A DNA stretch of 64,000 bases from an uncultured Erysipelotrichaceae bacterium (GTDB lineage Bacteria; Bacillota_I; Bacilli_A; Erysipelotrichales; Erysipelotrichaceae). The position numbers and the translations under genes are program-made. Positions within the stretch are counted from its first letter, which is position 1. The number at the start of each line of letters is the position of its first letter. The notes under the pieces were generated by a model. That model saw nothing but the letters and a program-made list of their open reading frames with translations. It searched no databases and was not told the origin of the DNA. Shown one piece after another: positions 11,478 to 44,133 of the stretch. The stretch covers positions 1-64,000 of the forward strand of contig CADBEA010000004.1 of assembly GCA_902793635.1 (NCBI GenBank), given 5' to 3'.

Positions 11478-11795
11478 TCAATGCCAGGTGTATGGGAACA
11501 TCTGTTCGTCAAAGTCACCGTCTTCGTGGATTTTTACGAGACCCATCTGGTTCAGTTCCGGATACAGGTTTACCTAAGATCCGCAGCTTGTGCAGATGCA
11601 GCTGTCCACAGCGATCCTTGTGCCGTCAGCATAGCCTTTGTAACCCTGAAGCTGCGAGCGCAGTGTTCCTTCCGCACCGCAGGCCGGACATTTGATTTTG
11701 GCTGCCCGCACCGCCATATCATATTCGACGCTGAAATTAAAGCGGCCGCCGGCGACCTGCTTTATTTCTTCTTCGTTCAGTTCATCTGATTTCAC
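11478..11795 (-). pseudogene. Double-glycine-leader zinc-ribbon protein interrupted by an in-frame TAG
   Basis: Starting from the GTG at 11795, 73 codons precede an amber codon at 11574-11576. They encode a bacteriocin-type leader (ELNEEEIKQVAGG) and a four-cysteine core: CPAC near 36-39 and ICTSC near 67-71. After the TAG the same frame continues for 31 codons (VNLYPELNQMGLVKIHEDGD onward) to a TGA at 11478. This continuation aligns with the C-terminus of the intact homologue at 29532-29840 (VALFPEQQQMCLVDKMGEF). The truncation is therefore recent, read through, or recoded. The start is also odd: an ATG with a GAGG site at about 11811 is one base out of frame across a run of six A. It lies 34 bases after the 11830-12132 gene. 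Confidence 0.7.
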
Positions 11796-11829
11796 TCTTT
11801 TTTACTGCCATTTTTTCCTCTTCTGTTTT

Positions 11830-12132
11830 TCAGGCTCCGTATTTATCAATCAGAAAATTCATTATCTCTTCATGTGTCATTATATTGACACCAAGATTTT
11901 TCACAAAATACGTTGTCGGGCCGTTGTGATCTCCCGGCTGGCAGGAACCGTCATATTCAGGAATATTCATATACAGCCAGCGGACAACACTGCCGTCGCC
12001 GATCGTGGAAGGATCTCTGTCTGCCCATTCGGGATTGTGGCGGACCGCCCATGCCTTAAGTTCATCCCATTCGGCATCATAACCGCCACTGACAGCATTC
12101 AGTTCCTCTTCATGAAGTTTTCTATTGTCCAT
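11830..12132 (-). CDS. Small secreted-type protein with double-glycine leader, unknown core
   Basis: 100 residues. The N-terminus LHEEELNAVSGG is a class II bacteriocin-type leader (L-x-x-x-E-L-x-x-V-x-GG) that would be cut after residue 17. The remaining 83 residues have a single Cys, several Trp and a net negative charge, and end in a helical-looking stretch (THEEIMNFLIDKYGA). They do not resemble a known bacteriocin. Ribosome site AAAAGGAG precedes the ATG. It leads a two-gene minus-strand unit with the interrupted zinc-ribbon gene. No ABC transporter with a C39 peptidase or modification enzyme is seen nearby, so export and role are open. Confidence 0.65.
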   Translation of the reverse strand: MDNRKLHEEELNAVSGGYDAEWDELKAWAVRHNPEWADRDPSTIGDGSVVRWLYMNIPEYDGSCQPGDHNGPTTYFVKNLGVNIMTHEEIMNFLIDKYGA

Positions 12133-12186
12133 AGGGCTGTACTCCTTTTGCTTTCACTCCGCAAGATACTGTTTTCGGAGCATTTC

Positions 12187-12215
12187 ATATTACCCTTCAG
12201 GGTATGCTTCTACAA
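12187..12215 (-). promoter_or_regulatory. Promoter of the double-glycine pair with a palindrome in the spacer
   Basis: TTGTAG (12210-12215), 17 bases, TAATAT (12187-12192) on the minus strand. The spacer holds the palindrome TACCCT-TC-AGGGTA (12191-12204), which abuts the -10 box and could be an operator. Confidence 0.5.
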
Positions 12216-12381
12216 GATGCAGTTACTGATTTACTCTATTTATATTATCGAAAAGGTCGGTCCGGCACGCAAGCGGATTTTACGGCGCGGCAGTCATCAG
12301 ATATCATGATACCGCTGAAACTGTATCCTGTCTCCTCTGCCTGCATCAACCTGATTACAGCAAAGCGTTTCCTTAAAACTG

Positions 12382-29531: not shown

Positions 29532-29840
29532 TCAGAATACTGCCGGGAACATTTCATCCTGGAACTCGCCCATTTTATCGACAAGACACATCTGCTGCTG
29601 TTCCGGGAACAGGGCGACAAAAGCGCCGCAGTTGGAACAGATCATATGGTCTACAGCAACCTTTCTTCCGTCAGAGTAGCCTTCCCATATATGACCTACC
29701 GAGTTCAGCGTGCCGGTCGCATGGCATGCCGGGCATTCCAGATTAGCATTGATTATTCTTATTTCGTATTCTGTATCGAATGTGAAAGCTCCGCCGGTTA
29801 CTTTTTCAATATCTTTCATTGTCAGTTTTTTTTCTTCCAT
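29532..29840 (-). CDS. Double-glycine-leader zinc-ribbon protein, intact
   Basis: 102 residues from the ATG at 29840, chosen because AAGGT lies seven bases upstream; ATG 29855 is in frame and sits just after a TATAAT box. The leader is KKLTMKDIEKVTGG, cut expected after Gly17. The core has CPAC near 36-39 and CSNC near 68-71, a zinc-ribbon pattern, with the conserved link WEGYSDGRKVAVD. It then ends in an acidic tail (GEFQDEMFP). It aligns along its whole length with the interrupted gene at 11478-11795, including the part behind that gene's stop. Role unknown: could be an exported peptide or an intracellular zinc protein with a leader-like N-terminus. Confidence 0.75.
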   Translation of the reverse strand: MEEKKLTMKDIEKVTGGAFTFDTEYEIRIINANLECPACHATGTLNSVGHIWEGYSDGRKVAVDHMICSNCGAFVALFPEQQQMCLVDKMGEFQDEMFPAVF

Positions 29841-29863
29841 TTTTCTTACCTTCATGACAGATC

Positions 29864-42477: not shown

Positions 42478-42888
42478 TTATTCATTTTCATCCTCATACC
42501 GGATGATATGATGACGGCCTTCCTCGACCGCCAGATCAGCAAGGTCGCGGACATTTGAAACATAACCGCGTGCCAGATTGACCTGCATTAACATGCCGAG
42601 GTTGACACCCGCGACGATCTCGATGCGGCGGGAATCAATGACCTTGCGGCGTATATCCGCACAAACTTTATATGGTGCCGCTTCCAGCATGTCCGCCAGG
42701 ATCAGCACACCCGTGCAGCCGCGCAGAGCGCCGAGTGCCGCCCGCATTTTCGCCTCATAGTCATCCGTTGAGTCTTCCTGCAGATAATCGACCGCTTCAA
42801 ACGATTCCGGCCGGCCGGCCAGAAGTCTGACTGCTTCCTTCATGCCCGAAGCGAAGGTACCGTGTCCTGTAACAATCACACCAATCAT
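42478..42888 (-). CDS. PTS mannose-family EIIA component
   Basis: 136 residues. The phosphorylated His9 lies in VTGHGTFASGMKEAV, followed by the alpha/beta EIIA-Man fold with GVLILADMLEAAPYKV near 80. Accepts phosphate from HPr and passes it to EIIB. No EIIB gene is found in this operon (IIA-IIC-IID), so EIIB must be encoded elsewhere. Divergent from nagA, with about 100 bases between the two genes. Confidence 0.92.
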   Translation of the reverse strand: MIGVIVTGHGTFASGMKEAVRLLAGRPESFEAVDYLQEDSTDDYEAKMRAALGALRGCTGVLILADMLEAAPYKVCADIRRKVIDSRRIEIVAGVNLGMLMQVNLARGYVSNVRDLADLAVEEGRHHIIRYEDENE

Positions 42889-42913
42889 AAATTTTCCTCA
42901 CTCATTGCAATAT

Positions 42914-42963
42914 ATTATAACAACTCATTCTCACTTGCGCACGTTATTCGCGGCTGTGATAAA
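42914..42963. promoter_or_regulatory. Divergent promoters of the PTS operon and nagA
   Basis: Minus strand: TATAAT at 42914-42919 with a weak GTGCGC 17 bases upstream. Plus strand: TTGCGC (42935-42940), 17 bases, GATAAA (42958-42963). The two -35 boxes overlap around TTGCGCAC, allowing shared control. Confidence 0.5.
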
Positions 42964-42987
42964 GTAGTAATTAAGGAGGTACTGTAT

Positions 42988-44133
42988 ATGCGTATCCGCA
43001 GTACACGCGTATGGATCGTCAGTTCCTTTATGCCTGCCGATATCATCATTGAAAATCAGATCATCACATCCATTGAACCTTACCGGTCTGTTCCGGAAGC
43101 CGATATAGACTACGGCGAACGCCGGATCGTTCCCGGTTTTATCGACGTGCATACCCATGGAGCCTATGGCTTTGACACCAACTACGCAGATCCCGAAGGT
43201 CTGAAAAAATGGACAGCCGGCGTTGTTTCGGAAGGTGTCACCGGCCTGCTTGCCACAACCGTCACCGACAGTAAAGACACCCTTCTGAAAGCACTGGCCA
43301 ATGTCAACGCCGTCGCTTCCGGTTCCTACGACGGTGCCCGCATTCTCGGCGTCCATCTCGAAGGTCCCTATCTCGACAGCAAATACAAAGGCGCTCAGCC
43401 GCCGGAAGCCATCGTTCCCCCTTCTGTTGAAGAATTCCGCCAGTACCAGGCAGCTTCCGGTGACCGGATCCGTATCATTACTCTGGCGCCGGAACATGAC
43501 GAAAACTTTGCCCTGACCCACTACTGCGTCAGTCAGGGAATCGTCGTCTCGATGGGACACAGTGACGCGACCTATGAACAGGCCCAGCTGGCCGTCGCCA
43601 ACGGCGCCCGTTCCATCACTCATACCTACAATGCCATGCGGCCTCTCAAACACCGCGAAAACGGCATGGTCGGCATCGCCCTGCGCATGCATGATCTCTA
43701 CAGTGAGATCATCTGTGACTGCAACCACAGCACACCGGAAGCCCTGCATATCTTCTTCCAGGCCAAGGATGCCGATAAAGCGCTGATGATCTCCGACTCA
43801 CTCATGTGCAAAGGCTCCGCCCCGGGTGAAAGATTCCTGTTCGGCGGCCATTGGATTGAGATCTATCCGGACGGTTCCGCCCACCTGGTGGAAGAAAAGA
43901 ATCTGGCCGGCTCCACGATGCGGATGAACGAAGGCCTGCGCAATCTGGTCGAAAGAGCCATGGTGCCCTTTGACAAAGCCATCAACGCCTGCACGATCAA
44001 CCCGGCCCGGATGCTGAGAATGGATGACCATATCGGCCGTATCACCGCCGGCTATGACGCAGACATTGTCGTGCTGAATGACGACTATTCCGTTCTTCAG
44101 ACCTACGTCAAGGGCAGCCCGCAGCTCCCCTGA
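42988..44133 (+). CDS. nagA: N-acetylglucosamine-6-phosphate deacetylase
   Basis: Produces glucosamine 6-phosphate and acetate. 381 residues from ATG 42988, preceded by AAGGAGG. Amidohydrolase motifs: PGFIDVHTHGAYG near 55, HLEGPYLDSKYKGAQ near 125, MGHSDATYEQA near 190, THTYNAMRPL near 210 and the catalytic Asp in MISDSLMCKG near 268. The expected metal His residues are present. nagB is not in the window. Divergence from the mannose-class PTS suggests import and deacetylation of an N-acetyl hexosamine phosphate. Confidence 0.94.
   Translation: MRIRSTRVWIVSSFMPADIIIENQIITSIEPYRSVPEADIDYGERRIVPGFIDVHTHGAYGFDTNYADPEGLKKWTAGVVSEGVTGLLATTVTDSKDTLLKALANVNAVASGSYDGARILGVHLEGPYLDSKYKGAQPPEAIVPPSVEEFRQYQAASGDRIRIITLAPEHDENFALTHYCVSQGIVVSMGHSDATYEQAQLAVANGARSITHTYNAMRPLKHRENGMVGIALRMHDLYSEIICDCNHSTPEALHIFFQAKDADKALMISDSLMCKGSAPGERFLFGGHWIEIYPDGSAHLVEEKNLAGSTMRMNEGLRNLVERAMVPFDKAINACTINPARMLRMDDHIGRITAGYDADIVVLNDDYSVLQTYVKGSPQLP

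Follow-up and report, generated by a model that had tools for sequence, protein, structure and literature searches.

Leader peptides recognised by C39-peptidase exporters of the AMS/PCAT type follow a rule of L(-12), E(-8), a hydrophobic residue at (-7) and GG (eLife 2019;8:e42305, PMC6363468). In-frame stop codons in conserved bacterial genes are a separate subject, and many of them have been argued to be read through, with orthologous stop positions used as the criterion for genuine cases (Belinky et al. 2021, PMC7918605). In this study, both subjects met in a disrupted double-glycine gene for a probable zinc-ribbon protein (11478..11811, minus strand) lying within the window, i.e. the 64,000-nucleotide stretch (contig CADBEA010000004.1, positions 1 to 64,000) of an uncultured Erysipelotrichaceae bacterium that was analysed here. 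The gene resembles the in-frame stops described by Belinky et al. in having a single nonsense change within a reading frame on which purifying selection is still evident, and in being evolutionarily short-lived. It differs from them in that its start is damaged too, by a lesion that breaks the frame, and the stops of its family are non-orthologous, which fits repeated loss better than a maintained stop. The gene is very probably a very young pseudogene, silenced by two ordinary mutations.

The leader of the window copy (LNEEEIKQVAGG), located near the N-terminus, exactly fits the pattern L(-12)-x3-E(-8)-hydrophobic(-7)-x4-GG, and the genome (G000) contains an intact exporter of the NHLP type (TIGR03796/TIGR03797). 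This comprises one intact NHLM_micro_ABC1 (936 bits; cut-off 853) adjoining NHLM_micro_ABC2 (718 bits; cut-off 709), and the C39-peptidase exporter at G000:C30:16371-16763 exceeded the cut-off of the TIGR03796 equivalog. Such an exporter was present in all three genomes that hold the family (see below), while strong matches occurred in a minority of the genus. Judging from its sequence, a precursor of ~110 aa would be cut and exported by a peptidase-C39 ABC exporter. In contrast to described AMS/PCAT and NHLP substrates, the putative cargo does not match any recognised bacteriocin or modified peptide (Bacteriocin class II, PF10439, scored about 15 bits against a gathering cut-off of 27.1); it consists of a two-CxxC domain whose tail is conserved. 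The gene and the exporter are far apart, and no modifying enzyme was found next to the gene.

The two-CxxC core is probably a zinc ribbon, and the proteins of this family are predicted to bind zinc. The two CxxC pairs, ~30 residues apart, recall Lar_restr_allev (PF14354) and the YgiT-type finger (TIGR03831), but the family falls below these curated cut-offs and has neither a solved relative nor a fold match. The Pfam and NCBIfam families gave no match over threshold for the two-CxxC domain, all scores against zinc-ribbon Pfam families were below the gathering cut-off, and neither the PDB sequence search nor Foldseek (E<=0.001) returned a match. The AlphaFold model of an intact 111-aa homologue had a moderate mean pLDDT of 77.5, and its last three strands (79-83, 88-95 and 100-107, in the numbering of that homologue) lie beyond the position of the amber codon in the window gene.

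The gene extends from its original ATG (11811) to its original TGA terminator (11478-11480) and shows full-length homology to an intact 111-aa paralogue carried on a separate contig of this genome (G000:C47:7842-8177) and to copies on contig C90 of Erysipelotrichaceae MAG RUG12361 (G056). The first-pass annotation had placed a TAG closing the frame at 11574-11576 (minus strand) and an ATG one base out of frame across six A, and both were located as described. The TAG stands just after the second CxxC pair. The ATG at 11811-11809, the sole ATG with a Shine-Dalgarno-like element (GAGG, 11817..11820, minus strand, five bases 5' of the ATG, recognised by sequence), is separated from the body frame by the A6 run (11798..11803, minus strand) and is one base out of phase with it, while the ATG of the homologues is in phase with the body. 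Its own frame reads MAVKKSEIR and then meets TGA after 9 codons (11782-11811). The body frame is opened only by a GTG at 11795, for which no ribosome-binding site is evident, and what remains open (11574..11795, minus strand) is a 73-aa frame that includes the leader and both CxxC pairs but lacks the last 31 residues of the C-terminus. Just upstream, a second small double-glycine-leader gene (11830..12132, minus strand) ends 18 bases before the ATG. Since the start is phase-shifted and the frame is closed by TAG, the gene has two independent lesions. The intact state would have been a ~110-aa precursor composed of a double-glycine leader, a two-CxxC core and a conserved C-terminal tail. Silencing would have come about by a one-base shift of phase within the A6 run that closely follows the start codon and by mutation of a codon shortly past the second CxxC to TAG, and the gene would thereby have lost its function.

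Beyond the TAG, 31 codons (11481..11573, minus strand) encode VNLYPELNQMGLVKIHEDGDFDEQMFPYTWH and are followed by the TGA at 11478-11480. Homology of this tail to the C-terminus of the window copy at 29532-29840, proposed in the first-pass annotation, held up in BLAST (13/27 residues identical, 48%; E=1e-6 for one comparison); the alignment is indeed colinear, although the gap is of two residues and not of one. The paralogue at G000:C47:7842-8177 is far closer, with 22 of 32 residues identical (69%; E=5e-16). When the tail was shuffled 5000 times, the best score was 24, compared with the observed 43 and 125.

The same locus was then compared with that of a sister species, represented by Solobacterium sp. 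MAG RGIG2362 from goat ileum (G013). Its copy (G013:C8:59579) occupies the same place, between a HAD-hydrolase gene and argH, with flanks 89% and 93% identical. At the amber position it has CAG, and the frame runs on past this codon to a TAA fourteen codons downstream of the window's amber position. As the codon is a sense codon in an orthologue with such similar flanks, the TAG is private to the window lineage. Across the shared sense codons, all 74 of 74 encode the same residue, with 6 synonymous and 0 non-synonymous changes, of which 4 synonymous and 0 non-synonymous fall after the TAG. The absence of non-synonymous changes over 74 codons indicates that purifying selection acted during most of the period after the species split, and therefore that both breakages are recent. 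A zero count is, however, also expected of a protein that is still made, and so the count alone cannot separate decay from readthrough. The orthologue in the sister species is itself broken, not only by the TAA but also by a deletion matching window positions 11702..12345: 635 bp were lost between the imperfect 9-base repeats CTGCCCGCA (11702-11710) and CTGCCTGCA (12337-12345), which removed its leader together with the whole counterpart of the neighbouring double-glycine gene (11830..12132).

Clear family members were found in 3 of the 70 genomes of the genus (G000, G013 and G056), with only marginal matches in two more. Extending the search to the taxonomic family (272 genomes) and the order (315 genomes) yielded no clear members outside these three, the latter adding two weak matches with internal stops, and no relatives were found in viral contigs. 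The double-glycine leader and the two CxxC pairs are the hallmark of the family, and the C-terminal tail is conserved in every intact copy. Nine copies were identified in total. Five of them are intact (G000:C47, the window copy at 29532, G013:C8:75308 and two on G056:C90). The other four are broken, no two in the same way: the window gene by the phase change and TAG, G013:C8:59579 by the 5' deletion and TAA, G013:C10:115955-116284 by a TAG where relatives have Trp, and G013:C5:49459-49722 by a frame break (phase change) directly after GG. In consequence, no stop is conserved at an orthologous position, the four damaged copies having four different sets of lesion positions. Because the relatives are broken at other positions, ordinary gene decay explains the window gene, and not a special reading of its stop codon. 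Of the three options raised in the first-pass annotation, a young nonsense mutation is thus favoured by the CAG and the other lesions of the sister species' orthologue, while recoding is not supported, given the lack of a shared stop, the tRNA and RF1 content of the genome (see below) and the broken start. Assignment as a pseudogene is based on lesions relative to intact homologues and on the sense codon in the relative's orthologue.

The intact distant paralogue in the window (29532..29855, minus strand, 107 aa) is also intact, and 99% identical, in the sister species. Only 2 synonymous sites differ between 29532-29855 and G013:C8:75305-75628 (dS 0.03), compared with dS of 0.3-0.5 for argH and the HAD gene; this low divergence may reflect recent exchange or strong local conservation. 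Together with the G000:C47 copy, this paralogue could cover the function of the lost gene.

The same double-glycine leader also precedes unrelated cores in small genes scattered over the genome, on contigs C14 (L077, another two-CxxC protein), C42 (L075), C37 (L076) and C6 (L078) and at window 11830-12132, none of them near the genome's only NHLP-type exporter, which lies on C30. In addition, tandem double-glycine-leader genes with 2[4Fe-4S]-ferredoxin-like cores were found at G000:C10:21419-22066 (L004:1111-1407 and 1471-1758). The second of these (G000:C10:21779-22048) has GD in place of GG and an in-frame TGA for the Cys codon of the first (CTM*GSC versus CIRCGSC); selenocysteine was rejected at this position, as no tRNA-Sec exceeded the cut-off in the genome. 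Both genes of the pair are intact in G056:C70, and the sister species gave only a partial match. The in-frame TGA shows that loss recurs among the double-glycine genes.

Among the alternatives, the one that survives best, though improbable, is that a 73-aa product is still made from the GTG at 11795 and exported, the TAG being tolerated because it comes after the leader and the two CxxC pairs. The second CxxC does lie shortly before the stop, no lesion interrupts the reading frame between GTG and TAG, which includes the leader motif, and the remnant, with all four Cys, might work if the GTG were used. Against this, no Shine-Dalgarno sequence fits the GTG, the one present serving the out-of-phase ATG; the missing tail is conserved in every intact copy and supplies the final three strands of the modelled structure; and the orthologue in the sister species has lost the leader entirely.

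A sequencing or assembly error is very unlikely. The genome is a fragmented draft (79 contigs, 95.4% complete, 3.6% contamination), the relatives are metagenome-assembled and one lesion falls in a homopolymer, all of which would suit such an explanation, but two separate errors within 330 bp would be required, while ~50 neighbouring genes compared with the sister species show none. When the window and the 62 kb of G013 syntenic with it were compared reciprocally (~50 comparable genes), no internal stops were found in other shared window genes, the flagged cases being read as antisense frames or upstream start extensions. Nor could errors in the window assembly explain the independent lesions of the orthologue, including its 635-bp deletion. 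A gene that is intact in the window (42862-44133), which we take to be nagA-like from recognition of its sequence, has a broken counterpart in the sister species, with two in-frame TAA codons.

It is equally doubtful that the double-glycine genes of this lineage form a contingency set, in which individual exported zinc-ribbon proteins would be switched off and on within populations by reversible small lesions (homopolymer phase, single stops) and broken copies would be a maintained polymorphic state.

Least credible of all is a full-length protein made by programmed readthrough or amber suppression, for which speak the stop-free tail with its unchanged protein sequence between the species and the argument of PMC7918605 that readthrough occurs at many in-frame stops of bacteria, but against which stand the lack of any relative with a stop at the same place (the criterion of that very study), the out-of-phase start codon, and the results of a search for the machinery. 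An amber suppressor, pyrrolysine and loss of RF1 were all rejected: the search for a suppressor tRNA, suggested in the first-pass annotation, found none with a CUA anticodon among 41 tRNAs, all typed (in a draft ~95% complete), RF1 is present above its cut-off, and the best match to pyrrolysyl-tRNA synthetase (PylS) scored 29 bits, far short of the cut-off of 178. Suppressing the TAG would in any case not suffice for a full-length protein, since the ATG does not share the phase of the body, and programmed -1 frameshifting at A_AAA_AAG (the A6 run in the classic phase) was likewise rejected, as the -1 frame hits TGA immediately and the body lies in the +1 frame. Nor did the relatives' orthologues all end at this TAG, a pattern that the first-pass annotation had named as a refutation, since no copy shares the stop position. 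Programmed readthrough of the TAG is therefore not supported, and decay is preferred because the lesions do not match among the copies and the start is broken.

If the gene is read as a very young pseudogene, what looked like stop-codon recoding in a bacterium falls away, and a way to settle such cases is illustrated, namely a sister species' sense codon at the site combined with lesions of its own in that gene. The case also draws attention to a little-known family of apparently exported two-CxxC proteins of narrow distribution, which is redundant and whose copies are repeatedly and independently lost in a small group of ruminant-gut Erysipelotrichaceae, as is expected of redundant or conditionally useful secreted cargo.
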